Assembly: GCF_041381155.1 (NCBI RefSeq)
Contig: NC_091137.1
Coordinates: 16,797,765 to 16,861,764, forward strand
Reading direction: 5' to 3'
DNA: 64,000 nucleotides
Origin: Argopecten irradians
Lineage: Eukaryota > Mollusca > Bivalvia > Pectinida > Pectinidae
Below are positions 1,048 through 55,189 of this stretch, in pieces (positions within the stretch are counted from its first letter, which is position 1; each line of letters opens with the position of its first letter). The notes under the pieces are model-generated. The model was not told the DNA's origin. It saw only the letters and a list, made by a program, of their open reading frames with translations, and did not search any database. A program made the position numbers and the translations under genes.

Positions 1048-4000
1048 AAATACAGAGGAACAAGCAGCAACGGACTCACTATGTAAAACTGCATATCATT
1101 GGCTAGATACCAAGTTACTCCCAGGCACTGAAACCGTCACATCAAGCCATTACAAATAAAAGGTTTACCCGGATACTATGTTATATCTCAAACAACGATA
1201 TAACATCGATAGCATTTCATTAACATTTAAAAGTTTGATGAGAATTTTCTTATACACCAAGGAAGGAAAATTACAACGAGACAACAATTCAATATACATG
1301 TAATATGAATCGTGGTTACTAAGTAATCGAAAAGAATAACTACACCCACCTGAAAATCAAGTAGTCATTTCATTGGAATAGGTGAGAATACATTATTTGC
1401 ATCGAAAATAATCACAACTTTCCGAAAGAGAATTAATTATTTTCCGTACTTACCATTTTATCAGAGTGAACAAAGTTATTCACATACAGAAGGTTTGTCC
1501 ACCACGTGGTTGAACAGGAATCGATCTCAAATCCGTCTTTCGGCCATTCAGGTCCGTCGCCAAGGTAACGAGTTAGCGTGGCACTGATCATCAATATCAG
1601 CATGTAAGCCGGGGTAAGTCTATGAGAAAAACAGATTAAATGAAATAACGAAGAACAATGAACAACAAATTAGCATCCATTCCATTGCATATATTCGTTA
1701 AAAAGATCATAAGCTGATAATTATTATTTCAATAATCAATTTGATAAAAGGCCTACCTCCAAAATCGATGAAAGTAGAACAAGAACCAGTTAATCCTTCC
1801 CTTTTCTTTCGTCATCTCTTTCATGAACACATACGCCACGAGTAGGCCGCTGTATAGAATTCATGTCAAACGTTAAAGTCACATTGGATAAAAGAAAAGC
1901 AGGGAATATAATGACATTGTTGTGTTAATTTTTTCTTACAACATATCTCATTCCTTTATAATTCAATTTTGCTTGTTACGAGCATTTTCATTGGCTTAAA
2001 AATTTAATACTTTAATTATCAGCCCTTAAAGGAAAAATGACGGCGTAATGATTTCATAGACAAAAGAGTCCCAAAATGAATTTTGAGTATTGAAGAGATT
2101 ATCTATAGTAAATTTGATTATAAGGATTAATTTGAATAAATTTGTTATGTTATGGAGATATAACACAAATATCTGAGTGTGCTCTCATCATAAACGGCTT
2201 TGCGGTTTATTTAGAGTACAATCAGATTTTAATCTTTAAATAAACAAAACAGCTGCAGGTTTGACGTCAATAAGGTTTCTATAGATTAATTTTGATCATT
2301 GAAAACTTCACAGCGGAACTCCTTTATAGAAGAACTTGCTGAAATATACAGAAAATTTGAATATGACAGGAAAAATGAAGATTATGCAAGAACGCTTACC
2401 TCATAGTGAAGAAAGTATCGACGGACATCAAGCCATTGAGTATCACCATGAAGGTCCAGCGGGATACCACAGAGTAGAAATAGGAAAAGTTTTCTGTGCG
2501 CATTCAGAATTCAGAACATTATTATGGAAAGGTTTCTGTGCACATTCACAAATACAGAACAAAATTAGGGGAAGGTTTCTGTGCACATTCACAAATACAG
2601 AACAAAATAAGGGGAAGGTTTCTGTACAAATTCACAAACACAGAACAAAGTTAGGGGAAGGTTTCTGTACAAATTCACAAATACAGAACAAATACAATGT
2701 AAATTTAAAGGGGAAGTTTTTGTACATATTTTTTCAACCGTATTTGTAATAGTACTGAAGAAATCTTTGTGACACAATATGGTATTTTAATTTAAAATCT
2801 TTGTGATTTCAAATAATATGTCGATTGGTAATTTGTAATCTGCGCAAAATTTGGCAAGCAATTCAAATGAGTTTCATAAAATTCCAAAAAAGGGTTTAAT
2901 ATACACTTTATTTCTCAAAATAATATGCATGGATGGTAAAAGTTTATCTTTATTTTGTTGTTTTCAAATATCAACTTTACGTTTCATTTATGTTCTAACG
3001 ATCGAGGTTATTTGATAAGACAAACTTTTGTATATTTTTTTTAGAAAGATACAATAATTTCATTGAGCTACATAAAGCTAGACAAATACAACATAATGTG
3101 ATTTTTTCGAGGTATTTTGATAGCAGAATCCTTGAAGACTTACGGATATAGACGGCGGTAAATGAATACGTGTGTCCGAGAATGACCCAGGCCATGCTGA
3201 GGAAACGTATTCCATTAATGGCCCCGAGGGCACCTCCTTGTTCGGTATTTAACAGCTTTTTCCCATTGGTCCACACGGAGAAGGATAAAAGTAGTTTCAC
3301 CAGGATTCCTAAATAGCAAAATGACACTTCAATGATTAATGTTTTTTTGCAGTATAAATACATATTGCTGACATTATTTGCCATTTTGTATTGGGGCTTT
3401 CATATATTTGCCATTACACACAGCTTACTGAATATGATAAGCTAAAAACAACGATTGAATAAGTTTAAAATAGATGAAAAACGACATAATTAAACAATAT
3501 AAAGAATTCCTCGGATACAATTATTCGTAAAAATAAAATAGCCAACCCGATAGCGTATAGTATCAGTAACCGGATGTAATTTTCTTTTAAGTCGAGTTCA
3601 AGTATTGATATTTTCGTAAATCTTAGATGCTGCGAAAATGGATTTGATTGTAATATTTCTAGAAAAAGAGAGGATAAAAACAATGCTCGAATTATAATGT
3701 TTCTAAATCTATATTGGAAAGTACAGGGTATCCACAATATCATTGTTAGAATATAATACCTCTAAATGGTTCTGTTGTAACAAAAGCTTGGGTACATCGC
3801 TATATGTTATGTCACTGTTTAATATATTTCAAAAACCGGCGACTATTTGTTACTTTGCATTGTTGACGTGAGCAATATCAATTCCTAAGGTATTCTTACA
3901 TGTTATATACATGTGTACATTCAAGAAACATCATGTATAAGCGGTACTTCATACTTTAAGTTCATTACCGTCGACAAATAAAACAAAAGACAGAAAAAAA

Positions 4001-7000
4001 TAATTGTGTAAGCTAACCATCGCTGCAGTTTTGTTCTTTTTGTTTTGGTGGGGCAGTTTCAGGGTCTTCGGTAGGAGCGGTCGGGTATATCTTCGGAACG
4101 TGGTCGGTCATTGCAGACTTTTTGTACTCTTCGGAGTCAATTGAATAGATAATGGAGGGAAATTCCGTCTTTTTTTCACCTTCACTGATCTCAGGTATCG
4201 GAGCTCGAACGTCATGAATTGTCTTCGGGATTTCTTGGCATTTTTCTGTGGTCTTTTTGTTGCTCCGGCATTGACTTCGTAGTATGTCAAAAGCCGTCGA
4301 AATTACCATCAGGAATGCAAAAAATCCGCAAATACTCCTACAAGTAACAGGATACAATGATTAAGTAATTACGGTACAGTTTACATAGAAATATCTTACG
4401 GTTAATTAATTGTTCGCATTCCTTTGCTTTAATAAAATATGTTTACACTTAAATGACTTGTCAGTTTTCTCGACAAAAGTGAGTAGGCAGTAAATAAAAA
4501 GGTGAAAAAAAATTAAAAAGAACCTTAAATGGATAATTTCCTTTTTATTTTTGAATATCGCATCTCTTAGATTATATGTCTCTTATGAAGTATTTAAAAG
4601 AAGGAGAAGGAAGAGAGTTACACGTAGGTTTAGAATGAATATTTCAATGCATGTCTTCAACCCTCTTATTTTATAAAACAGGGGTAGATTTTCGTCGAAC
4701 AGTCGTAATAGATTGTGATTTGACATAAGTTTGACCTATATCTATGTGTTCGCCAAAGGATGAAGATGCTCCACCACTGACAGAGCTTAATCGATTCTCT
4801 TGATTTGACCAATAACTGATATTTAATCGTGTATATACGTGTCTAATTTACACAAAATTACACATTAAATAATTAAATGCGTAATCAGTATTTCATTCCA
4901 TATAGGGCATGATACCATGGATTTTTTATCGGGACGGAAATAATGATTTTATATTCTTATCTTGAATTAAAATAAGTAGCTTTTGTTACTGAAGAAAATT
5001 ACTAATTCATTTGCTGCTGTTTTGATAGAGAAACAATACCATTCGTCAGCGGTGGAGCATCTTTAATTAATCTTCAGCCTTGTTTATTACTTTGCATTTT
5101 CCCTTTCCCTTTTACATAAAGTGCTGTATTTCATTGCATAATTTGAAACTTACAATGCAATGATAGCCTTTGTGTCATATGCAGTTTCAGTGGGGCTGCA
5201 GGATGCTTGTGATGCGTATATAGGGGTATCGCCGGCGGGAATTGATGACAACACTACAAAAACAAGCATGTTATATCGCTTATAATCATCTCATATTATC
5301 AAACATTCACAGGTGTGTCTTTGAAATTCAAAGCTAACTATACAACTTTATATTAACACTCCTTGTACACTAGCTGTAGGCGTTATATATACTCATTTAC
5401 ATAAGCATATAATTCACGGCCGCGAAGTGCAAACAAAGTTACCCAGTATAAAACAGGCGCATGCGTTGAACAAGAGTTGCCACACTTATAGAAAAGAACA
5501 TAGCAGATTCATCATATGGGAGAAGGAGAAATTGACAAAGGCGATATTGACATTTCACTCTAAATCATGATCAAGTGACCCATGTGAATATAGAACGCGC
5601 CAATGCCTTACTGACATTGAATGGTATCAAAATAATCTCCATGGCCACAGGCAGAGATTCACGTTTCAGCTTTGTTAACGATTTATAAAGATTTTTATTT
5701 TTAGTTATGATTGATTTAATCGTATTATAATGGTACATAGTTACTTATGAAAAATAACAATATTCTGACTGTTTCGAAATATTGGAAGCCACTTGATGAC
5801 GTCACAAAAGAAAGAAAATGATACCATATCATATATTACGTCATGGGGTAATATAGGCTGATAAAATGGCGGTTATTCCTTATAACATCAATAATATAAA
5901 AACATTTATACGGAAATTCTATAATTAAAAATATAATGAGACTTGAAAATACATTTTGTAAGTATGCAAATTAATATTAAAGTCTAAGTAATCTGTACAC
6001 TACATTTAATGCACATTCTATATGCGTATGCTATGTTCTTAATGATTCACGGAAAGAGAAAATACATCTTAGCTAAGCTCAAACAGACAAAAGTGGTGAA
6101 ACTTTAGCTGATCGTCTTTTCAACAAAATCGTACATTATATAAACACCCTTAGTGACGTTTCTACATATATATACACGTACATTGTTTTATTTTTTTAGA
6201 TGAGAATTACGCGTTTGCCGCAAGCGCGTTAACTCAACAGTAGTTTACCTCCTTACTGGATACAGAAAATATGTGATCTGGAGCTGTTACATCGAAGTCA
6301 ATGACATTTCATATTAATTATATCACTTACATGCATTGATAAGTGTAATCATATCATATTCGCCACACGTAGCTGGAACACAAAGACCTTCCTTCATAAT
6401 AAGTGGGAATCCCTGTAATGTAAATCATATGACATATCATGCAAAATGTCAAAATATGTGGGGTTTTTTCAGAGTGTCGAAGTGCTTTAAAGCAACTTAT
6501 TTCATTCATTCATGCATTCATTTATTGATTGTTGATTAATTGATTGATTGATTGATTAATTGATTGATTGATTCATTGATTGATTCATTCATTCATTCAT
6601 TCATTTATTAATTAAATCAATCAATCAGTTAATCTTTTAATTAATAAATTAATAAATAAATACCGTATTTTTCATTATTTATGCGCCGGGTTAAAAAATC
6701 ACAAATATCATAATAATGGGATACATTGTATTACTATCAATTAATATCAAAAATTTGTTTTGTTTATTTTATCATTCATTCCATGATTTCAATCAATCCC
6801 TACCTGTATTGATGCCGGGACACTGACTAGGCAGTACCTAGTGGTGAACTCGGAGGCTTCAATGTTAAGACACTGGTCATATCTACCAGGGAAATACACA
6901 TTACCGTCGAGGATGCCCGCCCGGAGCTTTCCCATGCTGTCTAGCACTGCAAAGTAGGGACAGTACATACATTAATAGAAACGTTTGTTTTTGGAACAAT

Positions 7001-8432: not shown

Positions 8433-8496
8433 CGTCAGTTCCTGAAAATATTACTCCCAAATTTATTTCGAAGACCTAACGATCAAGAATGATCTG

Positions 8497-8535
8497 CCTT
8501 TTTATAGTTCTCTGTGACGTGTCTATCTGACGTCA
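8497..8535 (-). promoter_or_regulatory. TATA box and CRE upstream of the NRF-like gene
   Basis: On the minus strand a TATA motif (CTATAAAAAGG, 8507-8497) lies about 65 bp before the start codon at 8432, which leaves room for a short 5' leader. A perfect palindromic CRE (TGACGTCA, 8528-8535) lies about 20 bp further upstream. The motifs are seen directly; activity is inferred. Confidence 0.6.
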
Positions 8536-11060: not shown

Positions 11061-11064
11061 CGAA

Positions 11065-11250
11065 GTTCAGCAGTTTAGATGACACGACATATTTCAAAAA
11101 ACATTCCACCTCTGGGTCATGAGTTTGAATCCATGTTTGGCAATTGCTAGGTGATGACTGCTGGTGATTTCTGTTCGGGTACTCAGGTTTTATTCCATCT
11201 CCTAAACACGTCTAAACTTCGTTTAGCAAAAACACTCTCAAAACGAAGGG
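11065..11250 (+). mobile_element. Decayed tRNA-derived SINE
   Basis: Matches the intact SINE at 62.6 kb in order: a B-box-like part (CACCTCTGGGTCATGAG, TTTGAATCC), then the central domain (TTCGGGTACTCAGG). The A-box half and the 3' tail are eroded, so it is an old copy. Confidence 0.6.
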
Positions 11251-12592
11251 AATAAATTTACTTATCAATTCAATACAAATGAAAATCTTACTTATCCTTT
11301 TTTAACGAATTTATTTTAGTGGATACCAAATGCAATATGTCTTTCAAAAGCAAATATTTATGTTCTATTATCGTTATCCACAAACAAAAATAATCCATTG
11401 AATTGGACCGGAGTCATATACATGTACCTTAAATATCTGATCTCATTGTGACCTTCAGTTATGACCAATAAAGACATCCATTTCCATAGTCATCGCTGTG
11501 TTTTAAAATATTTAAACAAGACAATTTAGACGTATAATTTCTACCAATGACATTTGTATTGTAAATGTAATTGATTAATATTAAAATCACTATAATCGAT
11601 AAACAAGGCTAAATATGAACGATATTTGCAATATTGTAATGTGTGGACACTTTGGAAAGTCAATTGCTTTAGAAGGTTTCAAATAAAGGTTTCAGTGAAA
11701 CCAATTTGGATACCATACCAATTGACATGAAACTTGTCTGATCTAATAGCCTAGACTGCACACATATGGTGATCGAGAATGCGGTACCTACTTCATATAC
11801 TTCTTTTACCGGATGTTTTTCAGTCTGATCATTATTTCTAAAGGCAATCGTAAATGTTATAAATGGATATTTAGAAAATATGTTCGGCAACAAAGCCTGT
11901 ATTGTAGAGTTACATGCAAGTAATTGCGCATTTCACAATGTTTTGTTGTCCTTTCTCTAGTTACGTTGCGAAATACCTATCAAGTATTTTGTACATATAT
12001 GGTAAGTTCGATATCAGGGACAGTCTACCTTATACTTAATTAGAGTGTCTCCCTACTTTCGTCTATGTGCGTGCCATCACTAACACACACCAAGGTTCAT
12101 GTATAGGGTAAAACTAGTCTCATCTTATTTTTGCAAACCTATTCATGCTTCTTTCGTTCAATATAATAAAGGAAACCTGATCAATGGTTATTACATGACT
12201 GCATGTCTAATAGTAGACATGCAGTTATTTGTCAAGTTTAGTTTTAATTATGAGGAGATATGCAAACAAGTGTGAGAAGTGATCACACTAGCGTAGATAA
12301 CATGTATTAGTATACCTCACCGATGAGTCACAGTCGCTGATTGGTCGACGCTTCCGTCCGAGGAAATGTATTAATATTCTTATGATAAAGGATACAGATA
12401 ACACAATTACACTCCATATAATGTTTATATAATGTAACATGCTAAAGGGAGTTGATTTGGGCTGAAAGATACGGTAGGTCTAACTTCTGATTTAACTCTA
12501 TCTGTAACGTTAGCCCAATACGGCAACAGTGTTTTGGGCAAACAATACAAGTCTAGCCATTACGTTAGACTTGTATTCTAGTGCGAGTAAAG
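11251..12592. other. Intergenic, no gene recognised
   Basis: AT-rich. A small inverted repeat (CAAGTCTAGCC...TTAGACTTG, 12549-12574) leads into the hairpin that follows. No coding evidence was found. Confidence 0.5.
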
Positions 12593-13690: not shown

Positions 13691-13715
13691 TTTATTTGTA
13701 TTTACCATTTACATT

Positions 13716-15915
13716 CTATATTTCTGTTGACATGGTAGTTGTGTGGTGGTGATGTACAGCGGAAACCGTGTAAACAGACGCGCCTGCGCACATGTGCTCT
13801 ACATGCTGACTAAGTTTCAAAACGTCGTCATGTGACATTGGCGTTTTTGTTCCCCTAGCGACCCACAACATCAGCTTTGACTGAAAACAATAAAAACATA
13901 TTTTGTCATATATCTTTATTTCAAAACGTCTACAAAAGCAACTAGGTAACGTTATGTTTTTTTTGCAAACTCCAAATAAAGCTTTTCGGCATTATATTTA
14001 ATTTGTTTGTCAATAACTTAAATGTGTTTCATGTTTCTATATTATATATCAACATGCGGATGGCTTTTCACACACATTGTAGTTCATGTGACAAGTACAA
14101 AACTTAACTAAACAACACTGATTAGATTTTCGTAAAGTTGATATCCTGACACCTTATTATAATCAATACATCGATACTACATGTATATCTTCAGCAACGA
14201 TTCCAATATCGTTAATTTGTTATAATTATTTCATTAATGACGTAAAAACTTATTTTTCTTGTATTTTAAACAATTTTTCAGATATCTCAACATCGGTTTT
14301 TAATTCAACAAGCGATAAATTAGTATGCGATTATGATCACATATAACTACTTTGTGACGGTTTTTCTTTAGAATAAATAATGAGAAGTTACCTCGGCAGC
14401 CCGGAGCCCATCTTCTGTGTGAACATCTATTCCTTGATGTGAGGTTATTCTCTCGATGTAACAGTTGTTTCCCAACTTCATAACGAGGCGGTGCTGTAAA
14501 TACAATGATGATTATTGGCCATTTCATAGGTAGCCGCCATTGTAAGATTTCGCCCATAAATATTATAGATGTTACTATGAAACGTAAACGCGATATGAAT
14601 AGAACATCTTAAAGATAATGTTTCAAGTATGTTTTATTCGATGCACGTGAGTCTAATATAGACAACAACTGAGATAACATTTCTGTGGCATCTGAGGAAA
14701 TATAGTTTCTTTACACAACATTAATTTATATATGCTTGCTCATAAAAATACAACATAAGCAATAAATCTATATTTGCAATTAATATTTAATTACACTATC
14801 ATTTAATCACCTACATGTAATTGGACTGTTATTCCGTATTTCGGAAAGTCAGGATTCGAGAATGGATGGGATTTGTATGCATTGTCTCACTGAAATTCTT
14901 CAAATTGTTGTTCATTGTAAGTGTTTGATTCCATGTATCTACTACTTAATATGTTCATGCGATATTTCATGAAATTCGCTTTGATGTTTTCAGATTTGTT
15001 TGACAAGACTCACAAAAACTACACGTTTAAAACTACTAATTACCGTATGAAATAAATACAACATACTCATTTATGAACCTATATTTACATTTACTTGTAA
15101 CTTCTACTGTATAAACTAACCAAGGCAAATTGAAGGATATGACGGTATAACCGACACCCAAAAGGTGACCTTTATGACGTCACTAATGTTGACGTGGTGA
15201 CGTCAACTGATAACCGTCTAAATGGCTGTTCCATCTTGTTGATTAAATCGTCGTTGATAAACGGTTTTCATGGTCTAGCTTAAACAATGTTAATGCAGAG
15301 ATCCTAAAATGAGTTGATAATGTAAATATAAGCATTAAATTATCTTTCTATGGCATCTATGGTCTATAAAGATGCCAGAGCTTTGCAGACAATCAAAGCT
15401 CTGGCATCTATATAGACCATAGATGCCATAGGAAGATAGTTTAATACTTAAATACGTTTGCATTTCCAAAAATGACAAACATTCGGTAGGTAGCTGCCTA
15501 GATAGAGAACGGTAATATAAGGCAAGCATAAAAACGTGCTCTCGTAACACTTATCACTGTCAGATCATGTGCTTATTTACAAACATAAGTAGATTATATA
15601 TATTCTAGTTTAGCTGTTGATGTTATCCACTCAATACCTACTGTTTGGCCATCGTAGTAGAACAGTGCGGGATCAAGTTCGTTTGCTTCATGGTTGTGTT
15701 GGTGATGTGGTTTTGAGGTGGTAGTCTCGGCGTATATCTGGATACAAAATGGCGATATGTAACAACATTAATACGTCAAAAGTAAAAACATATTCAAGCT
15801 AATATCAAGATAAAATATATTGTCTGAAAATTTTGTTATTTCATTAAATATTGAGACTGAAATGCATCATAACCTGTGCAATGACACAGAGAGCAACAAA
15901 TATAACAGCCTGCAT
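13716..15915 (-). CDS. BRICHOS-like secreted histidine-rich protein, paralogue A
   Basis: Four exons: 15915-15874 (signal peptide MQAVIFVALCVIAQ), 15737-15642, 14493-14392 and 13880-13716, giving 134 aa; every intron is phase 0. The exon 2 donor is taken as GTAGGT by comparison with paralogues. The core has ALFYYD, then KLGNNCYIERI in exon 3, then HVEHMCAG in exon 4, ending in a His run (VHHHHTTT). The order Asp-Tyr, Cys-Tyr-Ile, and a second Cys about 60 residues on resembles BRICHOS domains such as those of gastrokines. That family link is my inference from memory; the gene model rests on clear paralogy with B and C. A signal peptide without a membrane anchor suggests secretion. His clusters at both ends could bind metal. 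AATAAA (minus strand) lies at 13696-13691, so the 3' UTR is very short. Confidence 0.85.
15334..15445. repeat. Near-perfect 52-bp-arm hairpin, TTAA-flanked
   Basis: Arms 15334-15385 and 15394-15445 are complementary with very few mismatches around an 8-base loop (CAGACAAT). TTAA is present at both outer ends (15335-15338 and 15441-15444), so it may be a tiny MITE. It lies in intron 2 of gene A and would be transcribed as a long hairpin. Confidence 0.8.
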
Positions 15916-15984
15916 GTTGGATTTCCAGGATAATGAGATTAGAATTCTCAGGGAATGAGATCTACAACCTGAAAAATGTGTCTA

Positions 15985-16010
15985 CCTCTATATATGGATA
16001 TAAGATAAGG
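15985..16010 (-). promoter_or_regulatory. TATA and GATA motifs of gene A
   Basis: Minus-strand CCATATATAGAGG (15996-15985) lies about 70 bp before the gene A start codon, with a GATA-type site (AGATAAGG on plus, 16003-16010) just upstream. Confidence 0.45.
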
Positions 16011-17205
16011 CGTATGGGGCGCCGTAAAGGGACACAATGTTTGAAAAAAAGTTGCAGATAACAACTATAAAAGATTTGACCTTAAGTTCCATTTCGTGAT
16101 CGTATTCCTTTTCGATGATTATAAAAAAAACCACTTTTTTCTTTAATATTTTTGTAGTTGCAGATAATTGACATATATGAAAAACATTTTCTGCAGACAA
16201 TGCCATGAATGAAAAATCTAAAAATAACAATAATCTGAATACAATGTATATCAAATAGTGTTATGTGAATTAAAAAACAGTCATACACAGCTTCATATTT
16301 TAGAAGAATTACCATTGTACAATGTAGAACACGTTCACATGTGTTCACATATACTACAAATAACGCCTACACTGGAAATGAGGACATCTGTCGATGTTTG
16401 GACTGTCTGTACTGTATTATAATCTATGCTGTGTACATTTCATTTCATTTCAAAATATTTTATTTAAAGATATAATTTTGGATCGGGCAGCAGGCAAAGG
16501 CTATATATGCCCTCTCCACATGCTTGCATGCATGTATTATACATACAATTTAGAAACATATTTTATCTTTACAAGCATATTTGCTCTGGACTGGATGCAT
16601 ATTATGATATTCAATCCTTTTTTTGATTAACAACAATCATACATATTACTGAAAACACTTACAAATAGTTAGTCACATATATAATAAGAAGAAATTACGA
16701 TGAAAAACATGCATATCTTCCTGTTGTATTAAACTTTAATTGATAACGTTCTTACTTGATTAATATTTGATTATTCAAAAGGTTCTGATTTTAACTTAAC
16801 TAAATTTTGATTATAACTTATAACTTAAAACTTAAAACTTAATCCCTCAATGTCACTCTCACTCCGGACATTCATTGTAACTGGACAGCACTAAAATGTC
16901 CATAGTGTTTTACCACTAAGTGCCTACCTAGTCACAAATATACGGAGTATGAGCAACATTGAGGAAGTAAACACACATATATACATATATGCATGTATAT
17001 TCATTTTTACATTCAATTCATATAGGGAAAGGAATTAATCAGTGTTATTTGGTTTATTCTTAACAATAGTGTTTTCATATGTCTTAGAGCCAAGTCACAT
17101 CAACATATATGATACAGTAAAGGGTAAAGTAGGAGTAAATATAGTGTCAGTGCAGTTTAATTAATCAATATGTTAATTTACTTCAAAAATAATTTTAGCT
17201 ATAAA
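16011..17205. other. Intergenic, no gene recognised
   Basis: AT-rich, with a short direct repeat ACTTAAAACTTAAAACTTAA near 16830. Open frames on both strands at 16.0-16.6 kb overlap one another and show no protein signature. Confidence 0.5.
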
Positions 17206-17209
17206 GTCT

Positions 17210-17720
17210 ACCTGTTGATTCAATGTATTTCTGAATGTATGCACACATTGCAGAATTAAGTTCATGACTGAGGTAATTGCTTCCCCTTGTTAGCAAGTTA
17301 AAATTATTTATTAGATGTAGATATATATATTTAAGTTGAGATTCAACTTAAGATTTAGTTGGATATCAATTAAAAGTTGTCTTTCGATTATAAATCTTGG
17401 GCAAAATAGAAAGAAGTGATAAATACCCTCAACAGAACTGCCACAGATACAAGAGAGTAATTATCAAAAAGATGATCTCTATATAAATCTGATTTGAATT
17501 GACTTGATTGGTTTCAAAGTTTGCATAAAATAATATTAAATAATCTAGATTCACTATATCTAAAAGCATCAGTACATAATTCATCAGCATTAGTGGATAT
17601 GGCATGAAAGACTAGCTCCCTCTTAAGTTCACCTGATGATCTCATAGCAAAATAATTACAATCGGGTCTTGTGTACTTTCTGAATAGTCGTAGGTCACCA
17701 GAAGCCTAAAAAGAGAACAT
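17210..17720 (-). mobile_element. Degraded LINE C-terminal remnant
   Basis: Minus-strand translation gives a CxCG...E..H...CP signature (CICGSSVEGIYHFFLFCPRF, about 17455-17395). This is the layout of the Cys/His motif near the end of many LINE reverse-transcriptase ORFs. Upstream, further minus-strand coding-like stretches (SGELKRELVFHAIS) are split by frame changes and stops. Strongly decayed; the clade cannot be assigned. Confidence 0.45.
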
Positions 17721-17975
17721 TTGTTTGTATGAGTACCATTTACTGAAAATCAGGTCACAGAGACCTAAAATCTGACATTTGATATAGAAGTATGGAAATC
17801 AGTAACATCTGTTCTCTTTAATTATTATTTATCAAAATCTTCAAGAGTTAATTTGTACGGCATTTGAGACATACTCGTGTTGCGTCTCCAGGGCAAATGT
17901 CTACTTGTCAGCGACGTAACAGTCGTGTGTATACATGAAGATGGGTTCCTTGTTATTATCTAATTTTATGTTGTA

Positions 17976-18296
17976 CTAACATGAGTTACCAGTCATTAAG
18001 GGGCTGGGAGTGATATTCAGATATACAGAGTAGAGGGACGGATAGCGGACACACCCTGTGTCTGGTCCCATTTCGGGGCCAACCACAGCATTACTCTGTG
18101 TGCTTGTAATAACCATGCTTACACGTACATTGTAAGTTGAAATGTATATATGCATCACAGAATAAAATAAAACGTCGACACAATATTGGAGTCCTTCGTC
18201 TTTCAAGTCTACAACTACATCGACGTGAACCTCAGTTTGGGCCATAACAAGGTGGTAACATGAACAACGGAGGGGTATCAGTTTGGGCCAACACAA
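17976..18296 (-). other. Unrecognised open reading frame of 106 codons
   Basis: Open on the minus strand. Its first 20 or so codons are simply the 46-bp minisatellite. The remainder (TEVHVDVVVDLKDEG onward) is non-repetitive with alternating hydrophobic residues and ends in NITPSPLMTGNSC. No homologue, promoter or splice partner was recognised. It may be a chance frame or an exon fragment. Confidence 0.2.
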
Positions 18297-19687
18297 GGTG
18301 GTAACATGGGCAATGGAGGGGTATCAGTTTATGCCATAACAGGGTGATTACATGGGCAATGGAGGGGTATCAGTTTGGGCCATAACAGGGTGGTAACATG
18401 AATAACGGAAGGGTATCAGCTTGGGCCAAAACAAGGTGGTAACATGGGCAATGAATGGGTATCAGTTTAAGCCATAACATGGTGGTTACATCGGCAAAGG
18501 AGGGGTATCAGTTTGGGCCATAACAGGGTGATTACATGGGCAACGGAGGGGTATCAGTTTGGGCAATAACAGGGTGATTAAATTGGCAACGGAGGGGTAT
18601 CAGTTTGGGCCATAACAGGGTGATTACATTGGCAACGGAGGGGTATCAGTTTGGGCCATAACAGGGTGATTACATGGACAACGGAGGGGTATCAGTTTGG
18701 GCAATAACAGGATGATTACATTGCAAACGGAAGGGTATCAGTTTGGGCCATAACAGGGTGATTACATGGGCAACGAAGGGGTATCAGTTTGGGCCATAAG
18801 AGGGTGATTACATGGGCAACAGAGAGGTATCAGTTTGGGCCATAACAGGGTGGTAACATGAATAACGGAAGGGTATCAGCTTGGGCCAAAACAAGGTGGT
18901 AACATGGGCAATGAATGGGTATCAGTTTAAGCCATAACATGGTGGTTACATGGGCAAAAGAGGGGTATCAGTTTGGGCCATAACAGGGTGATTACATGGG
19001 CAACTGAGGGGTATCAGTTTGGGCAATAACAGGGTGATTACATTGGCAACGGAGGGGTATCAGTTTGGGCCATAACAGGGTGATTACATGGGCAACGGAG
19101 GGGTATCAGTTTGGGCCATAACAGGGTGATTACATGGACAACGGCGGGGTATCAATTTGGGCCATAACAGGGTGATTACATGGGCAACTGAGGGGTATCA
19201 GTTTGGGCAATAACAGGGTGATTACATTGGCAACGGAGGGGTATCAGTTTGGGCCATAACAGGGTGATTACATGGGCAACGGAGGGGTATCAGTTTGGGC
19301 CATAACAGGGTGATTACATGGACAACGGCGGGGTATCAATTTGGGCAATAACAGGGTGATTACATTGGAAACGAAGGGGTATCAGTTTGGGCCGTAACAG
19401 GGTGATTACATTGGAAACGGAGGGGTATCAGTTTGGGCCATAACAGGGTGATTACATTGGCAACGGAGGGGTATCAGTTTAAGCCACAACATGGTGGTTA
19501 CATGGGCAAAGGATGGGTATCAGTTTGGGCCATAACAGGGTGAATACATGGGCAACGGAGGGGTATCAGTTTGGGCCATAACAGGGTGATTACATTGGCA
19601 ACGGAGGGGCATCAGTTTGGGTCATAACAGGGTTATTACATGGACAACGGAGGGGTATCAGTTTGGGCCATAACAGGGTGGTTACTA
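18231..19687. repeat. 46-bp minisatellite with higher-order periods
   Basis: About 31 units built on GGGGTATCAGTTTGGGCCAT followed by AACAGGGTGATTACATGGGC. Variant units recur together: the AACATGAATAACGG variant block at 18391 and 18851 (460 bp apart, ten units), and the GCAACTGAGG block at 19001 and 19185 (184 bp apart, four units). It lies between genes A and B. Confidence 0.95.
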
Positions 19688-19689
19688 GG

Positions 19690-21320
19690 GGATCGACGGG
19701 CTGATTGGCTGCTTCTTTTTCTTCATATACAATGAATAAAAAATCCGAGAATGGCGCGAAAATCCGACGTTATCATGACGTCTCAATAGTGACGTCCACG
19801 TTGCGTATTGAATAAGAAAAAGTAATCCATTGGAAAATCAGTGAAATTGACGTGTAAACGTAATTTATGTAATCAGGTAGTCTGAAATATTAATTATAAG
19901 CATTGATGTAATTATTTATTAACCTTCATCGGGTTAAGAAATACATTTTGTTTGCAAACTTTTGTGAGAATTTGCTTCGCGGATACAAACAGTTTGCAAA
20001 CAAAATTTCTTTCATACCCCTATGAAGTTAAAAAATAGTAACATCAATGCTTAAATATTTACATTTTCACTGCAGTCCCACTATGCGACCTTACCAAGCG
20101 CAGTTTTCATTCTTATAGTCATTGAACTTCAAGCGCTTATTATTATTATTGTAAAGTCATAATTGTCATGCCAGCGATCACGGAAAACGGCTGTTCAAAT
20201 GGCTGTTCCATCCATGACGATAACGAATGATGAATTTATCATAGATGCAAAAAATCCCTTTTAATTGCATCATACAATTGTAACCAAATGTAAATATTAG
20301 CAGCACGCTTCATAGAATTTGCCTCTGTCCAGTTGGCATTCATATTGGCTATGAATGCCAACTGAATGCCGTCCAATGCTTAGGTGCGTATATAGGCAAA
20401 GGAGACGTATCGAGGTTGGCGTCAAGTAATCTAATATAGGGATACAAGCAACTTGGGGTCACGGACATATGAAAAGTTAGCCGAAACATTAACTTTCTTT
20501 CTCCACCCATGATAACATCGGTGGTGGAGTGGGTGTAAAGTTAAATGGAAATATAATAATTATTCATGTTGGTCCAAGTGTAATAATGGAGAAGTTGTTT
20601 TTACAGATTTGTCGAAGGAATCGTATATTCAATATGAAGGTATTTTGTGAGAAGTAAGAAATCATGGACAATATTTGTCACAGTGTTCAATTTTTTAAGC
20701 TGACGTAAAGTCAGATCCTAATAATTCTGCTGCAACCAAACTTGTTTCTCTCCTTTAATAGCGTCAGTGCTACATGTATGTTCTGACAGCACCGTAGACC
20801 ATACTGGTCTGGCAACAATCACTTTATAAACTGAAATCAGGTGTAATATTTGCCATTCAAACTGTAGTTGGTTAAGACGAAACTACCAATTAATCTGGGT
20901 TCTTTCCTTTAGTTGCATCAGGAATTCTTATAGTTGTCAATCATGAAGCTGTTTTGGTTATTTTGTTTTTATTATTATTTCAAACTTATCTTAGTGATTC
21001 ATTGATACTGTGTTTAAATGTTTATACACTTCATATTACGTCGCAATATCCAGGTTAGATACGTGACTTCCCATTGGCTCAATATCTGGGCGTCTTTATT
21101 AAAGACACTAAGTCTGACATGTTTATACACTTTTAAGAAAAATATCTATTTTCTAAATTTCCTGAAATGCGTGCTTTCGTCATATGACGGCTTAGGCAAG
21201 AATGATTTCAGACCTCCACCAATGGGTCACATCTTAATTATGTTTTTTTTCTGTTATAATTATGTTCATTTTCTATAGGTCGTATTGGTGTATTATTACA
21301 ACACTGTATTAGCATTATAT
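19690..21320. other. Intergenic, with a hairpin repeat
   Basis: Contains an inverted repeat at about 19921-20036 (AAGAAATACATTTTGTTTGC on the left, GCAAACAAAATTTCTTTCAT on the right). A short shared phrase, GGCTGTTCCATC, also occurs near 15220, pointing to a dispersed repeat. No gene is supported. Confidence 0.55.
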
Positions 21321-21328
21321 AACTTTAT

Positions 21329-23871
21329 TCAAACAATTGGAGCCATAGTCGTGGTATGATAATGATGAAGAGGTGACACGACGTAAACTGGCAGTCCTGA
21401 GCACATGGTTTCCACGTGTACACTCAAAGCCTTGACGTCATTGTGGTTCATTAGTGTATGGTTTCCCTTGGCAACTAGGATCATGAGGCTATCCTGGAAG
21501 CGACACAATTATAGTTTTGTATTTATTTTGAATTCAACTGCGGTTTGATATGTATTAAACCTTAAGATCACGCTCTTTTATTCACTATGTAGTCAGGAAT
21601 TTCAAAACATTTTCTTAATTCTAACGATATTAAATTGCTATAACATCTTAAAATGCCGCTGACTTTGCTTGTCATCAATCAATTGTAAATCAATTGTAGA
21701 CTGGCCAATCATTTTAGATGGTGTTGCATCTTTAGTTTGTCGTCATATTTAGCGTTAGAAACTTATTAATGATAAGTGATAAACTATATATAGTAATGGC
21801 TCGCAGACCATTCCGTTAACCTATACTTACCTACCTCTAACTTCAGAGACCCACTGACCATTCCGTTAATACCCTATAGTTACATACCTCTAACTTCAGA
21901 GACCCACTGACCATTCCGTTAATAACCTATAATTACATACCTTTAACTTCAGACCCACTGGCCATTCCGTTAATACCTTATACCTTATAGTTACCTACCT
22001 CTAACTTCAGAGACTCACAGACCATTCCGTTAATACCCTATAGTTACATACCTCTTACTTCAGAGACTCACAGACCATTCCGTTAATAACCTATAATTAC
22101 ATACCTTTAACTTCAGAGACTCACAGACCATTCCGTTAATACCCTATAGTAACATACCTCTAACTTCAGAGACTCACAGACCATTCCGTTAATACCTTAT
22201 AGTTACATACCTCTAACTTCAGAGACTCACAGACCATTCCGTTAATACCCTATAGTTACATACCTCTAACTTCAGAGACTCACAGACCATTCCGTTAATA
22301 CCCTATAGTTACATACCTCTAACTTCAGAGACTCACAGACCATTCCGTTAATACCCTATAGTAACATACTTCTAACTTCAGAGACTCACAGACCATTCCG
22401 TTAATACCCTATAGTTACATACCTCTAACTTCAGAGACTCACAGACCATTCCGTTAATACCCTATAGTAACATACCTCTTACTTCAGAGACTCACAGACC
22501 ATTCCATTAATACCCTATAGTTACCTACCTCTAACTTCAGAGACTCACAAACCACTCCGTTAATACCCTATAGTAACATACTTCTAACTTCAGAGACTCA
22601 CAGACCATTCCGTTAATACCCTATAGTTACATACCTCTAACTTCAGAGACTCACAGACCATTCCGTTAATACCCTATAGTAACATACCTCTAACTTCAGA
22701 AGTCCAGCCTCTGTGTGTACCTGCGGTCTAGATGACACTCTCAGTTTCTGTATATAACATTGGTGTCCCCTTTTCATCACCATTTCATGCTGTCAACACA
22801 ATAATGCGCCATTTAAACGATAATCAGACATTAAGATTAATAGAAGTAGATTATGCATGATAATTATTTTGCGGTTACCGTCTTTTAGTGTTGTAGTATA
22901 GGTATTCTTTTCCATAATGCCGTTTTTGCATATTACATTATCTGCCTTCTGATGGATTGTATTGATTATAACTTCATCACCTTTATAAAAATGGGCCTGT
23001 CTAGGTTAGTATGAGAGGAACGACATTAACAAACACATGAGCTACTTGTAACGGTATGTAACTCTATCATATATACTAATTTAGAATTGATAATACTTAT
23101 ACTTATTGATATATGAATAAGTCAATTTTTTTCCAGATATGGTTCCGGGACAAAAGAAAAGTGATAAACACGTCCAAGTCACACAATTAATGTCTGGTTT
23201 ATGGTCGAGTAAGTCTGGCTATCACTAAAGGAGAATACGATACAAAAGTTCTGATAATATCGACATTTTATGATGATCTGCACGTATATACATACCGATA
23301 GAGCGTCATAATAAAACAATGCCTGATCAAACTCGTTTGATTCGTGGATATGGGGACGGTGTGTCGATGGTATTGTAGTCATGGTATATATCTGTAATCA
23401 AATAACATTGTCTAAAGAAGGCATATTAACATTGCTGTCACATGAATTTGGTAAGAGAGCACCTGCTATCTGTCACCAATCTCCATTAATTCAAAATTGA
23501 TGTTTTCTAGAAGTGTTAATTTTTTGTTATCATGTGTATTAAAACGTATTATAATATACAATGTAGGAATTAAATCATAAAAACAACAGTTGTGTACTAA
23601 ATAATGTAAAATGTCATCAAACCCTAAATTGATTCTCGTCACACAGCAGCTCCACGTTAGATGAATGTGAAATACTTTTTACCATTTATATAACACATTT
23701 AATCAAAATAACATCAAAAGCACGCATTTCAGAAAATGTAGAAGATAAATCACCAATGTGTATCAAACTTTTTTTTTCGTTGTCATTTGACATTGTCTAC
23801 TTTCTTTAAACGACTGATTTAACACTTACCTGCCCAATCAGGCACAAGGCTACGGCTAACGCACAGTACAT
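21329..23871 (-). CDS. BRICHOS-like secreted histidine-rich protein, paralogue B
   Basis: Four exons: 23871-23830 (signal peptide MYCALAVALCLIGQ), 23391-23296, 22789-22688 and 21493-21329, giving 134 aa. Exon lengths 42, 96, 102 and 165 equal those of paralogue A, and all introns are phase 0. Core motifs are HESNEFDQALFYYDALS, KRGHQCYIQKLR, RPQVHTEAGLLKLE and SVHVETMCSGLPVYVV. The last has the Cys-x-Gly-x-Pro-x-Tyr flavour of the BRICHOS end. The tail PLHHYHTTT is histidine-rich. Likely secreted. Minus-strand AATAAA (21329-21324) overlaps the TGA stop by one base. Intron 3 is filled by a 53-bp array copied from the exon 3 donor. The BRICHOS label is inference; the exon model is well supported by A and C. 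Confidence 0.87.
21797..22700. repeat. 53-bp minisatellite made of the gene B exon 3 donor junction
   Basis: About 17 units of 53 bp built on CAGACCATTCCGTTAATACC and ACATACCTCTAACTTCAG. On the minus strand each unit reads CTGAAGTTAGAG then GTATGT, the last 12 bases of exon 3 followed by its splice donor. The rightmost unit is the real exon end (22688). Confidence 0.93.
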
Positions 23872-23916
23872 GTTGGTAAGGACTGGCTGGGTTATGTCTC
23901 CACATACTGTCTCACA

Positions 23917-23925
23917 CTTATATAC
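23917..23925 (-). promoter_or_regulatory. TATA box of gene B
   Basis: Minus-strand GTATATAAG about 46 bp before the start codon at 23871, predicting a leader of only about 20 bp. Confidence 0.55.
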
Positions 23926-24430
23926 AACAACACCGCAAGGTTCTTAGGGCAAACTTGATAAAAAGTCGCACATGTAGTTCCAATCTACAGATGGTGACAA
24001 TTGTTATATGTTGTTTAACCGATTTGATACAATTAGGTCCGATAAAGTAATCGATAGGAAGTAATAATTTAAATCACAGGTTTGTCTTAAGCTAACATTT
24101 TCTTTTCTTTGTTTTTCATTATCTGTATCACATAACACGTGCGTGAACAATTTTAACATTACACGAAAATATCAGACAGTTCAACAAATAAATTAACAAA
24201 TAATTTTAGAATTTTGTTATGTATGAGACTAATTACATGTAGTTATTAAATAAGGGAGATAACTCCTATAGCTAAATGTATATTACATGTATCAATATAC
24301 ATTCTATAAAGGTCATATCATTAATTTAGGTTATAGAACATACATGTTTGTTAACATGTTGATTATAAGTAGGGATCTAGAATGATCTATTTCCATCACG
24401 TTCTGTGTGTTTATTTGTTTACTGTGTAAG
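23926..24430. other. Intergenic, no gene recognised
   Basis: AT-rich flank upstream of gene B. No coding or repeat signature was seen. Confidence 0.45.
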
Positions 24431-24590
24431 GGGCCGCGGTGGCCGAGTGGTTAAGATGTCTCGACATATTACCCCCGGGACCCTTTTGACGGAAAAAATA
24501 AAGTTATTTTTATCCTTAAAAAAAGATGTATCGGCATATTACCACAAGCCCTCCACCTCTGGGTCACGGGTTCGAGTCCCATTAAATTAA
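24431..24590 (+). mobile_element. tRNA-derived SINE head with an internal insertion
   Basis: Begins with the SINE head GGGGCCGCGGTGGCCGAGTG (A box) and keeps the B box GGGTTCGAGTCCC. About 65 bp of unrelated sequence (CCCCGGGACCC ... TCCTTAAAAAAAGATG) sits between them, with a duplicated AAGATGT.TCG phrase at its edges. The 3' body is missing. Confidence 0.75.
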
Positions 24591-24940
24591 ATTGTGTTTG
24601 GAATTTAGCTGCTGGTTTCTCATTTCTGTTATTCTTGGTCGTAACAACATCTAAAAATTGACACAACATATACATAGGTGTACATACAGTCAAGAAATAG
24701 TCGGATTTCTCGTAGAAATTCCTGACCTTGCACTTGCGCTCACGAAACACTCCTGCCACAAACATTTTACATAAATAATATCCTTTTAAGCACAGACGTC
24801 GACCAAGATCAGTTTTGTTGTCTTTTTTTTTTTAAATTTCTTGCCAAATGTTGCGAATTCTAATACCAGTTAACATTTTTATACCGATTATCACAATACA
24901 CTATCAGGTTTTTGACTATTTCAAATTCAAGCAATATCAA
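24591..24940. other. No gene recognised
   Basis: AT-rich. The minus-strand open stretch 24765-24469 runs into the SINE head and is not supported as a gene. Confidence 0.4.
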
Positions 24941-25062
24941 AGAAACACAATTTAACAAAGGATGGCAATTTATTGATTATTACTCGTGCCCTATCCGGGT
25001 CTCAATCTGACGATCTACAACACCCCATCGCCTAGCCAAACATACCTGCCGCGCCACATACA
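24941..25062 (-). mobile_element. Second tRNA-like SINE family, copy 1
   Basis: Minus strand: TGTTTGGCTAGGCGATGGGG (A-box-like), then GATCGTCAGATTGAGACC (B-box-like), CCGGATAGGGCACGAGT, and a tail TTTGTTAAATTGTGTTTCTT. The second copy, at 37.9 kb, has the better-preserved B box. Confidence 0.6.
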
Positions 25063-25575
25063 CGTCCCCAAAAAAGGACGTTTCAATATAATGACGAAGT
25101 GGTAGTCGATTCGATATGACAACATGATCACTGTGAAAATTGTCCATTTAATGTTTTTATTTGAATTCCTGGATCGCATTATTTATACATACATGGATAC
25201 GAATTGCACACATTTTATATGAAATTAAAGCAATATTAACATTAAACCTCCTTTTTTTCGGACATTCTAAAAAGATGTACGTATTTCCCACGAGGTATAG
25301 ATACACCTAATATCGAGGTTACTTGTGCATATCATGATTGTCCTGCAGGTAGGGTATTGGAATTGTACCTGCTGGCCCTATTGCATAATCTTAAATGGAG
25401 ACCTAATTTAGAAATCTTATCTTTTCTCGTCTTCCTAACTAACTTATTTTTTCTAATGTCTCCGTTGACACCGCGTCACTTTTGGCCTTCTGTTGACCGC
25501 TAGCCCCTGTGAGGAAGGCTATGGATTCTGTCCCCTAGCCGAGACCAGCCAAAATCTATAAAAATGGTAATTTCT
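25063..25575. other. Intergenic, no gene recognised
   Basis: No coding signature was seen. The stretch just before 25576 may belong to the dispersed repeat that follows. Confidence 0.4.
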
Positions 25576-25840
25576 GCTCTTGGACGACTGGTTTGCCTGT
25601 TGTCAGTATAATGTGACGGGTGGGGTAAAATTGCTTGATGTCTTCGGCGGCATGCATCAGTAATATAGCACTATAAAAAGGCAAGAGTTCCACTATACGA
25701 GAAGAAACAACATGAATATACCGCAGTCTTCCACAACACACACCCGCACTACATACACGCAATATCACATACATAGGAGGCCATCGTTACATGATCCTGG
25801 CTGTTAGTATAGGACGTTAAGTTAGTCGAACAAACAAACA
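25576..25840 (+). mobile_element. Dispersed repeat S, copy 1
   Basis: Shares GACGACTGGTT, GATGTCTTCGGCGGCATGC, ATATAGCACTATAAAAAGGC and TTCCACTATAC with the copy at 56.6 kb. It ends in the SINE-like tail TACATGATCCTGGCTGTTAG ... GGACGTTAA. Non-coding; probably retroposed using the same LINE machinery as the SINE. Confidence 0.7.
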
Positions 25841-26960
25841 GAGCATATCATACATAATACATCAACAAAATCTCAAATATATAATAACTCGACAGATTTG
25901 TTTCGCGAAGCTCAGTCTTTGACAACATAATTAACAAACTTAGTTGCACTTGTGCACACCGTACTACAGATTTTTTATTGCTGAAAAGCCATACTGTATG
26001 ACACTAATTTCACATATAATCGAATGACGCAACTGCCAGCATATGGCTGTTCCCTTCCCGAATATAGCCGAGATCGTGACTTAATTATGTGACACGGTCA
26101 TGGCGGTTCTATAATGTGTTATATAGGTCAGTTGACCACAATACAGGACACACAAGGGAGATTTTCTCGTCACAGACCCTTCTGGAAATTCACATTTTGC
26201 TACATTAACGTCACTTTACAATAGAATATTAAAAACAATAGGATATATGTTGATACTGTAAACTTCTGTATTTTATCGCGTAATTTCACGAGTGAGCTCG
26301 GACTTCAATTCAAAAGTTTCGCGAAGATCTTGAATTAGTGTATTCACGAATCTGTTGAAAATGCCTAAATCGTGAAATATTGTATACGGAAAAATAAAGT
26401 GTTTACAATGACATAAAGGAATAACAATTGATTCCAATTAAAACCTGCTTAAAGAATGACTTAACATGGTCTGTGTATTTGTTATTGCTTTAAATCAATG
26501 AAAAAATACTAAATTAAATGAATTAATAATACTACTGGTATCCAATCAGTTGTCCTGACGGTATAGTAGTTGTGTGCATAGTCTACGATTTCCGAATGTC
26601 TAGAGCTGCTAACGAATATTTCATGATGGTGTTGTTTTGTTTACGTGAAAGTAATGTGTTTCGTGAGATGAAACAATTCATTTTTTCCCAAATCTTGACT
26701 ACTGTTCCTTCACGACTACTGGCAGGGACCTAGTGCATGTTTTATCTATTAATCAATTAAAAAACGAATAGAATAAAAATCATGGTTGAATTTATCTTAT
26801 AAAGATAAAACACATTTCTAATGATATGATTTTACATTATTTATTGGAAACTGTATAGTTTCAATGTGTTTTTTTCCGACACAATTATAAAAAATATATA
26901 CATGATCAGATATAATCTTTCAACATTTCAAAGAGAGACGGGACTAAATTTGACCTTGCT
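25841..26960. other. Intergenic, no gene recognised
   Basis: Unique-looking AT-rich DNA between the repeat and the gene C promoter. Confidence 0.45.
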
Positions 26961-26968
26961 TATCAGCG

Positions 26969-27037
26969 TATAGAGCACTTCAGAACGGGCCGAATTCCCT
27001 GTGAGGACCTCTGTGTATATCAATACATTTATATAAT
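26969..27037 (+). promoter_or_regulatory. TATA and GATA motifs of gene C
   Basis: TTTATATAAT (27028-27037) lies about 60 bp before the start codon at 27095. A CTTATCAG GATA-type site lies near 26969. All three paralogues have a TATA-like motif at 45-75 bp. Confidence 0.5.
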
Positions 27038-27094
27038 CTGTTGTCACTGATAGACCATTCTTGTTGAGCTTGACTCCTTCGTCCTGTCAGCAAG

Positions 27095-29142
27095 ATGTTC
27101 TGCGTGCTGGCTTTAGCCTTTTGCCTTGTTGGGCAGGTATGATTTACACTAAAAATTGAAGAATGATAATGTAGATCGATAATTTAAATGTATTTGCATT
27201 GCTTTTCATGAAAATGTATGAAATATTTCTGTAATTTCAGAAACTTTAAATTGATTAAATACATTTATCTTTGTCACACAATGAACATGTTATGTGAATT
27301 TGACATTTTCCCGCTGTGTCCAATACATGATTGATGTCAGTGATAATAGTCAAATGAGATCAACTTAGGCAAACTGATGTTCTATTTCCTCTAAAACCCA
27401 AACACTTTCGGAATATTTTGCTATATTAAAAGAAATTAAAAAGGCTGGTGTCATGTATTTGTTGTTAATGATTTTATAGAATGACAACATCTCCATAGTT
27501 CATCGACATTTAATAGGTTTTAGCTCTGCACCAATAAGTTATAAGGATATACCCGGTTTGTAAATACAAGTATGATAAAAACGGAAACGTGATTAAAAGT
27601 GAATAATGTCATTTATCTCAGTTGTAAATAACGGTATAATTATCACGTTTAGTACCTAATTGTAAAACTGTTAACTGTTAAAATATATACATGAATCTAA
27701 CAAAATAATAGGAACCCCTTTTACATAAAGACAGGACTAAACTTTCGCCAACCTATAAGCGGGGAGTTAGATATCTATCCAAGTCTCCGGTTATATACCA
27801 CGTATATAGTTTACAAACCAGTGATATGTCACTCATTCCTGCTACGGTTGATTGTCATGTGATGTTGCTCTACCTACCGACCACCATCGCTTGTGTATGT
27901 TATGTTGTCATGTGGGGTATCTACTACTCCTTCTTAAATCAATTAATACCTGTTGTTTTTTTAAGCTTATTAGCGTGTGATGTCTGGTTTTTAGATATGT
28001 GGAATGACTGTAATTCCATATTTAGTTATTATTATGTGATGTCGTTTATAGATATGTGGAATGACTATAATTCTATCTTTGGTTATCACAATGTATTAGT
28101 TGATGTCGTTTAAAAATATGTGGAATAAATACAATTCTATCTTTAGTTATTATATTGTATTATGTGATGTAGTTTATAGATATGTGGAATGACTATAATT
28201 CTATCTTTAGCTATAACACTCTATTATGTAATGTCGTTTATAGATATGTGGAATGACTATAATTCTATCTTTAGCTATAACAATGTATTATGTGATGTCG
28301 TTTATAGATATGTGGAATGACTACTGTTTCGCCTACCGGCCACCACCATGTGCATGAATCGAACGAGTTCGACCAAGGCCTTTTTTATTATGATGCCCGT
28401 TCGGTATGGATTTTATTCAAATACTAACATATTGTAACATGGTTGTCAAGCAATCGTTGCATTTGATTTATTTAGTATGTTAACTTTTAATCGATATATG
28501 TTCAGTGTTTGATATTTTTATTTGAAGAAACCATACCCTAACAATCCTTTTAGATTACGCAGCATTATTCTTTTCATCTTTCAATTTTATATAAAACTAT
28601 AAGAATTCCGTTGCATTTTGTCCACTTTAAACTTAAGACGACACAATAAGTTAATAAATCCCATGATATCTGTGATTCCTTCAGTTGAAGCTGCATACAA
28701 AGTGTTTATATTATTTCTGTGTCTATCAAACTTATTTTGTTTTTAACCTTGAACCCTTAGCATCAAATGGTCCTTAAACTGGGAGGTAAATGCTACATTG
28801 AAAGGTTAAAGGGATCCGTGCGCCCTCAAGTACACACTACCGACGGGCTCATGAAATTAGAGGTAAATACTTAATTGCAAAAATACGTTTCATTTCTTTT
28901 CATTTCATATTTTTCAGACAAGTCGGTAATTAATTTGTATGTGATAATCATCCATTTCCGTTTTCTTTCAGGGTAACCTGATGTATCTCGTAGCCAAGGG
29001 AACTCACACACAAATGTCACATGACGATTTGAATGACTTGAGTGTGCACGTGGAACACATGTGCTCTGGTTTGGACGTATTCACGGTAGCTCATCCCCAT
29101 CATCACACTACCATGCCCACAACAATGGGTGTTATTGGTTAA
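27095..29142 (+). CDS. BRICHOS-like secreted histidine-rich protein, paralogue C
   Basis: Four exons: 27095-27136 (signal peptide MFCVLALAFCLVGQ), 28308-28403, 28761-28862 and 28972-29142, giving 136 aa. The last exon is two codons longer than in A and B. Core motifs are HHHVHESNEFDQGLFYYD, KLGGKCYIERLKGSVRP and SVHVEHMCSGLDVFTV, with a tail AHPHHHTTMPTT. The two core cysteines match A and B and could form the single disulphide typical of BRICHOS folds. Secretion is expected. AATAAA begins at the last base of the TAA stop (29142-29147). The gene is on the opposite strand to A and B and convergent with the thioesterase-like gene. Intron 1 ends in a 64-bp array copied from the exon 2 acceptor. 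Confidence 0.87.
27986..28323. repeat. 64-bp minisatellite made of the gene C exon 2 acceptor junction
   Basis: Units begin GTTTATAG then ATATGTGGAATGACT, with the acceptor-equivalent base at 27994, 28051, 28115, 28179, 28243 and 28307 (spacings 57, 64, 64, 64 and 64). The last is the true exon 2 start. The one at 28115 has lost its AG. Confidence 0.9.
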
Positions 29143-55184: not shown

Positions 55185-55189
55185 AGAAT

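Follow-up and report, generated by a model that had tools for sequence, protein, structure and literature searches.

Why should a minisatellite inside an intron be built from the edge of an exon? The question is raised by a stretch of the bay scallop genome (Argopecten irradians, NC_091137.1:16,797,765-16,861,764; 64,000 nucleotides, hereafter the window), in which three introns of three genes contain tandem arrays whose units repeat the adjoining splice junction. One of these genes encodes an acyltransferase resembling nose-resistant-to-fluoxetine proteins (NRF); the other two, B and C, are BRICHOS-like. The source species is also evident from two myosin exon pieces of this assembly (L031), trimmed by eye, which match the striated-muscle myosin chains 1dfk, 1dfl, 1b7t, and 1kk7 of the bay scallop at all 208 of 208 residues; the next chains score lower. 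We consider it likely that these arrays are mirages, the junction-spanning minisatellites of lancelet genes, and that they were born by local duplication of a junction and expanded within the intron.

We called arrays with Tandem Repeats Finder (TRF; Table 1). In all three cases, the unit repeats the adjoining junction on the gene strand, with the real exon forming the terminal unit. The junctions, read on the gene strand, are ..GCACAG/AAAACTTTTCC for the NRF acceptor, ..TCTGAAGTTAGAG/GTATGT for the donor of B exon 3, and ..TTTATAG/ATATGTGGAATGACTA for the acceptor of C exon 2. By eye, the units include about 10-11 exon bases (with differences), 13, and 16 exon bases, respectively. The array in C has one extra copy upstream of the start reported by TRF. 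A first-pass annotation of this DNA had given the same unit lengths and borders, with the real exon as the end unit, and both TRF and our junction readings agree with it; its estimate that 12-15 or so exon bases are repeated was close. It had also described the three cases as independent, which fits what we found: the three units are not related, and searches of the scallop's own assembly (845.8 Mb, as for all genome-wide searches and word counts below) returned none of the three loci a second time. NRF and C each had a single match, and all matches for B lay within its own array, although the DNA similarity search skips very common words, so these single-locus results are not absolute.

Seven arrays in the window have TRF scores above 200, and the junction arrays are three of them. 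Among the other four, the arrays at 18232 (between genes A and B) and 50264 have no candidate exon edge scoring above 9.4, and the array at 41866 has none at all. The array at 62230-62765 has one candidate edge (score 13.5), in sequence that resembles a dispersed repeat. As we read it, the stretch beside this last array recurs at 25061-25176 of the 264-kb sequence that joins L005-L024 with the window (the joined stretch), and is a dispersed repeat. The array at 41866-43664 has 62 copies of a 29-bp unit, which on the minus strand holds a strong donor-like motif, GACGAG/GTATGC; we inspected its flanks and no exon was visible.

The exon borders come from several kinds of evidence. Our home-made exon finder is imprecise: above a score of 20 it reports 80 exons, versus 11 in reversed sequence. 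It scores NRF exon 7 at 13.2, but in another frame, and C exon 2 at just 8.3. The joined NRF reading across the exon 7 border matches PF01757 (Acyl_transf_3; E = 4e-12), and another NRF exon, at 6804-6946, matches the NRF domain PF20146 (E = 3e-10). Exons 6 and 7 of NRF joined alone have no match in Pfam; the match to PF01757 needs the next exons added. Gene C, joined from four exons, matches BRICHOS (PF04089) at E = 1e-4, which is below Pfam's curated cut-off, and two joined exons of its neighbor A have no BRICHOS match. Neither PF01757 nor PF04089 gave any result in family searches of the whole genome. A, B, and C are adjacent genes for BRICHOS-like secreted proteins (13719-29139), with A and B on the minus strand and C on the plus strand, and a protein search with them found only weak matches elsewhere (E = 0.0075 and 0.06).

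These three paralogs also show which came first. Exon 2 begins with ATAT after the AG in all of them, and exon 3 ends with GAG/GTA in all of them. The exon 2 acceptor has an array in C alone, and the exon 3 donor has an array in B alone. Because the paralogs have the same borders without an array, the border predates the array in both B and C.

Table 1. Junction arrays, exons, and donor arrays on contig 1. Positions are those of the window; L numbers are our handles for other stretches examined.
Feature	Location	Strand	Details
Minisatellite seeded by NRF exon 7 acceptor	2487..2692	-	43 bp x4.8; AG kept in 4/4 decoy acceptors
Minisatellite seeded by B exon 3 donor	21800..22700	-	53 bp x17; donors intact, spacing regular (53-58 bases)
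Minisatellite seeded by C exon 2 acceptor	28030..28323	+	64 bp x4.6; AG kept in 4/5 decoys
NRF exon 7, phase 1	2400..2493	-	First bases are the array end unit
NRF exon 6, donor C/GTAAGT	3144..3308	-	Exon finder; part of joined PF01757 reading
BRICHOS-like B exon 3, ends ..LLKLE/GTATGT	22688..22789	-	Comparison of exon 3 in A/B/C; translation
BRICHOS-like B exon 4, as predicted (true end perhaps further)	21380..21493	-	Exon finder; translation
BRICHOS-like C exon 1, signal-peptide-like	27095..27136	+	Exon finder; translation
BRICHOS-like C exon 2, array end unit	28308..28403	+	Exon start common to array-free A and B
BRICHOS-like C exon 3, homologous donor ..KLE/GTAAAT, no array	28761..28862	+	Comparison exon
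BRICHOS-like A exon 3, homologous donor ..AAE/GTAACT, no array	14392..14493	-	Comparison exon
Guanylate cyclase donor array	L036		PF00211, E = 1.5e-6
Mitofusin donor array	L037		PF04799, E = 5e-9; exon read by eye
Sepiapterin-reductase-like donor array	L043		Family match, E = 7e-4
Donor array at unnamed exon	L044		Exon score 23; no family match
Probable donor case	L042, G000:C1:493350-494250		62-base open exon-like stretch; no family match
Donor array, end not reached	L035, L045		Runs beyond both stretches examined

Junction arrays are not confined to the window. Within 200 kb to its left lies an ENPP6-like gene (PF01663, E = 4e-80; solved ENPP6 structure 5ege, E = 2e-102), which, as we read its exons, contributes two further donor cases. 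After the exon that ends with ..WWDDGEPLWVTAEKQ/GTAACT comes a 61-bp x43 array, whose unit repeats the donor together with 45 exon bases. A 45-bp x71 array comes after the next exon. We place the second donor at ..GAAGTCGTAG/GTCTGT, because the phase then fits the next exon and the two residues that are missing relative to ENPP6 are supplied; the unit would then hold 7-9 exon bases. A third array in this gene (34 bp x134) is away from any junction.

Tandem donor words are in excess across the whole genome. We counted tandem pairs of a donor or acceptor word and used the reversed word as the control; for every word, pair counts give heavy weight to large arrays. The donor word CAGGTAAGT occurs 19,404 times, versus 5,409 for its reverse, and forms 4,532 pairs at a distance of 31-61 bases, versus 161. 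Per occurrence, this is 23.4% versus 3.0%, or a 7.8-fold difference. A second donor word, AAGGTAAGT, forms 2,092 pairs versus 300 for its reverse, counts that are not normalized by the number of single words. The 100 matches listed for CAGGTAAGT, which cover the first 5.4 Mb of contig 1, fall in 64 distinct places and include four arrays; about 35 places are expected by chance. Two of the four arrays adjoin an exon, which, in this small sample, would put arrays at about 7% of the functional donors with this word.

Do the arrays found in this way sit on exons? We inspected all seven donor arrays among the matches listed for the donor words, all of which are on contig 1. At the 5' end of four of them lies an adjoining coding exon, and three of these four exons have family support (L036, L037, and L043). 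One more is a probable case, one does not adjoin an exon, and one has its end beyond the stretches examined. In the probable case, the possible exon of 62 bases lies between an acceptor-type array and a donor-type array. For acceptors, we inspected three of the five multi-copy arrays among the matches listed, one of which was picked for its exonic look. That array (L041) adjoins an exon-like stretch of 20 residues, which has no family match and contains an internal duplication that shifts the frame. We therefore lowered it from a confirmed case to a probable one, a change that leaves the likelihoods given here as they were; it is probably an acceptor junction array, to judge from its sequence. 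In the other two acceptor arrays we saw no exon. Altogether, we count nine junction arrays in eight genes (NRF, B, C, two in the ENPP6-like gene, L036, L037, L043, and L044), plus two probable cases (L041, acceptor; L042, donor).

The first-pass annotation knew of no named system of this kind, and there is one. In lancelets, minisatellites that span splice junctions, called mirages, are described in Adh3 and in the globin genes BflGb6 and BflGb9, with units of 10-72 bp in Adh3 (PMC3087553), and also in PGBD5 and troponin C (PMC3902484). In the scallop, too, the tandem unit spans an exon-intron border, at the three window loci and at others elsewhere. As in lancelets, both types of border are involved: donors in B, in the ENPP6-like gene twice, and in L036, L037, L043, and L044, and acceptors in NRF, C, and probably L041. 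The units carry splice signals in both groups; in the scallop, the donor GT is intact in all 15 aligned units of B and in 30 of 42 units of an ENPP6-like array (it is lost in 12), and acceptor AGs are kept in most decoys (Table 1). Because the anatomy is identical, we file the scallop arrays as mirages, now in a mollusc; judged by sequence, they are mirages in another phylum. The two cases differ in scope and in the kind of evidence. The lancelet passages concern single genes of cephalochordates, whereas for the scallop we have the nine arrays, the two probable cases, and word counts across the genome. For lancelet mirages, those passages report regular splicing and instability in length, whereas the scallop likeness is one of sequence anatomy. 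Among the titles and the beginnings of abstracts in the literature searched, we saw no mention of minisatellites at splice junctions in molluscs, and the passages of PMC4732748 do not describe them either.

How might such arrays arise and be tolerated? A segment that spans an exon-intron border would be duplicated locally in tandem, and slippage or unequal exchange would then expand the copies within the intron. Selection on the exon would hold the exon copy in place as the end of the array, while the copies on the intron side would be free to multiply and drift. The protein would be unchanged provided that the spliceosome picks the exon-proximal site, which would make the other copies decoys. 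When translated, use of a decoy leads to a premature stop in 4/4 cases in NRF, in 4/4 of the intact ones in C, and in the first five checked in B. Normal products of these genes therefore need the exon-proximal site. In the ENPP6-like gene, the first decoy is in frame: it would add 63 bases, or 21 residues.

Any of the causes that the first-pass annotation proposed (replication slippage, R-loops near splice sites, or selection that tolerates arrays only outside the exon) may apply. The excess of donor pairs suggests either that mutation is biased toward donors or that arrays persist better there. Better survival could come from having one end of the array anchored in selected sequence. Steps in base composition at exon edges would affect acceptors too, and acceptors were measured poorly, with one word. 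A stronger version of the idea is that, all over the genome, minisatellites are born at donors, through a process tied to the donor itself (its sequence, U1, or R-loops) that reaches several percent of strong donors and is shared by molluscs and lancelets, perhaps from a common ancestor. This is possible, but we lean against it.

Several results weigh against mirages as the explanation. In a permutation test of 40 arrays in 314 kb against raw candidate exon edges, 4 arrays lay at an edge versus 5.5 expected at a score threshold of 14 (p = 0.81), and 2 versus 4.8 at a threshold of 16 (p = 0.95). At a threshold of 8, there were 19 versus 12.9 expected (p = 0.03). At the strict thresholds the excess is not significant, and we keep the test as negative evidence. 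The null is inflated, because decoy exons occur inside long open reading frames. Among 38 unit consensuses, acceptor scores were not enriched (6/38, Fisher p = 0.71), and the acceptor word shows little tandem excess (159 pairs versus 108 reversed). That word is a poor test of acceptors, since it occurs just 5 times versus 5 for its reverse in 340 kb. Donor scores of the same 38 consensuses, which include the junction arrays themselves, are weakly enriched (8/38 below p = 0.1, Fisher p = 0.01, Kolmogorov-Smirnov p = 0.04). The genome-wide tandem excess of donor words is in line with the annotation's suggestion of a process that favors junctions; the acceptor data do not support it there. A single AAGGTAAGT array accounts for 97 of the 100 matches listed for that word, so large arrays count heavily among the pairs. 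No exon is in view at one donor array (L034), whose flanks are repeat-like. In L043, the exon-proximal donor is GTTAGT, which is weaker than the GTAAGT of its decoys.

Could the junction arrays be a coincidence? Minisatellites may arise anywhere in introns, and where introns are short some seeds will cover a junction; the mean intron in the published bay scallop genome is 1.7 kb (PMC7090048). If the seed of each window array is placed uniformly in its intron, 0.46 of the 3 are expected to cover a junction (P = 0.003 for 3/3), but this P value is biased because the window was picked for the pattern. The annotation's argument that three cases speak against chance is therefore modest evidence in introns this short. 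Across the six introns that have established exons and an array, each array would have a 10-38% chance of being seeded at a junction, and in the ENPP6-like gene alone, 2 of 3 arrays being junction-seeded has P = 0.08; both figures favor coincidence, as does the permutation test at strict thresholds. On the other side, 5 of those 6 seeds cover a junction versus 1.06 expected (P = 5e-4), with three of the five coming from the annotation's own selection. The six-intron count left out arrays in less certain gene models, including four of the 40 test arrays (six by TRF) in a part of the joined stretch, at 39.7-45.4 kb, where the exons on either side are lectin-like; candidate edges at two of the arrays in that region score 12.8 (on the opposite strand) and 10.4. 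The 7.8-fold excess of donor pairs per occurrence, seen genome-wide, also speaks against coincidence. Confining arrays to genes could explain about 2.6-fold, if about 38% of the genome is genic, which is our own estimate from the gene number and transcript length given in the genome paper (PMC7090048). We regard coincidence as unlikely. Selection for the arrays seems slightly less likely still. Under this explanation, the extra donors would recruit the U1 small nuclear ribonucleoprotein and so aid splicing or suppress premature polyadenylation, or they would regulate isoforms. In its favor, GT is intact in every unit of the guanylate cyclase (18/18) and mitofusin (25/25) arrays as well as in B, and the first ENPP6-like decoy is in frame, with its 21 added residues. 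Yet intactness is built in for guanylate cyclase and mitofusin, because those arrays were found by an exact donor word, and in B the donor motif served to delimit the units (their regular spacing shows that none was skipped). Conservation of the donor hexamer in B is hardly higher than in the rest of the unit (0.978 versus 0.962), and in the ENPP6-like array it is lower (0.897 versus 0.949), with GT lost as noted above. The remaining decoys that we checked yield stops. Taken as sequences, the decoys seem to bear no consistent sign of selection to keep them.

The other two explanations are far less probable. The lancelet mirages led to a model in which introns are gained when exon sequence is duplicated in tandem (PMC3087553), so that the arrays would mark new introns. 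The positions of B intron 3 and C intron 1 are common to the array-free paralogs, so we rejected intron gain for B and C, and overall we hold it to be very improbable. Bivalve tandem repeats can belong to mobile elements, and a title on this subject is among the references of PMC4732748. A mobile or dispersed repeat family that inserts at junctions, as introners do, would suit the repeat-like flanks and missing exon of L034. But the units are mutually unrelated and contain bases of their own exons, and genome-wide searches with the three window loci found no other place (with very common words skipped). As these searches returned their units from nowhere else, we rejected a mobile origin for these three loci, and we give the idea almost no weight in general.

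Taking the arrays as mirages, we can compare them with other repeats at intron borders. Zhuo et al. (2007) reportedly described human introns derived from tandem arrays, with matching sequence at the intron borders; the scallop arrays likewise match the border, but they sit in existing introns. In duplicated human genes, minisatellites expand at an exon border, as in the scallop, and according to the passages of that paper these repeats alter exons or make new introns (PMC2812944). In the scallop, in contrast, the exon is kept, and the intron is old in B and C. In a potato RdRp gene, a tandem genomic duplication tied to splice sites is described as creating an intron (PMC4974935), while the scallop has many copies in an old intron. 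Earthworm metallothionein genes are another spiralian example of intronic arrays, with minisatellites in the first intron; the passages of that report do not mention a unit derived from a splice junction (PMC12783039).

The scallop cases, together with the several-fold excess of tandem donor words, turn a lancelet oddity into a phenomenon that can be counted, and they raise a testable question about where minisatellites originate. They also provide natural arrays of identical competing splice sites, in which one can ask how the spliceosome chooses the exon-proximal one. For gene predictors and assemblers they are a caution, as repeated exon ends can mislead both.

The region is rich in repeats. 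TRF arrays of all periods make up about 14% of the joined stretch, and several exceed 2.5 kb, versus 1.5% of 50 kb from contig 1. Left of the window (G000:C4), a block of about 26 kb occurs twice in tandem with 97-98% identity (77095-102657 and 103158-128826 of the joined stretch; L012-L017); the copies are either a true duplication or two haplotypes assembled together. A 39-bp array inside the block differs in length between the copies (5.6 versus 13.3 units). Within the window, long open frames on the minus strand at 53822-61913 presumably belong to a long terminal repeat retrotransposon. Two adjacent copies of a thioesterase-like gene (4HBT_2) lie at 29908-31506 and 35470-37677.

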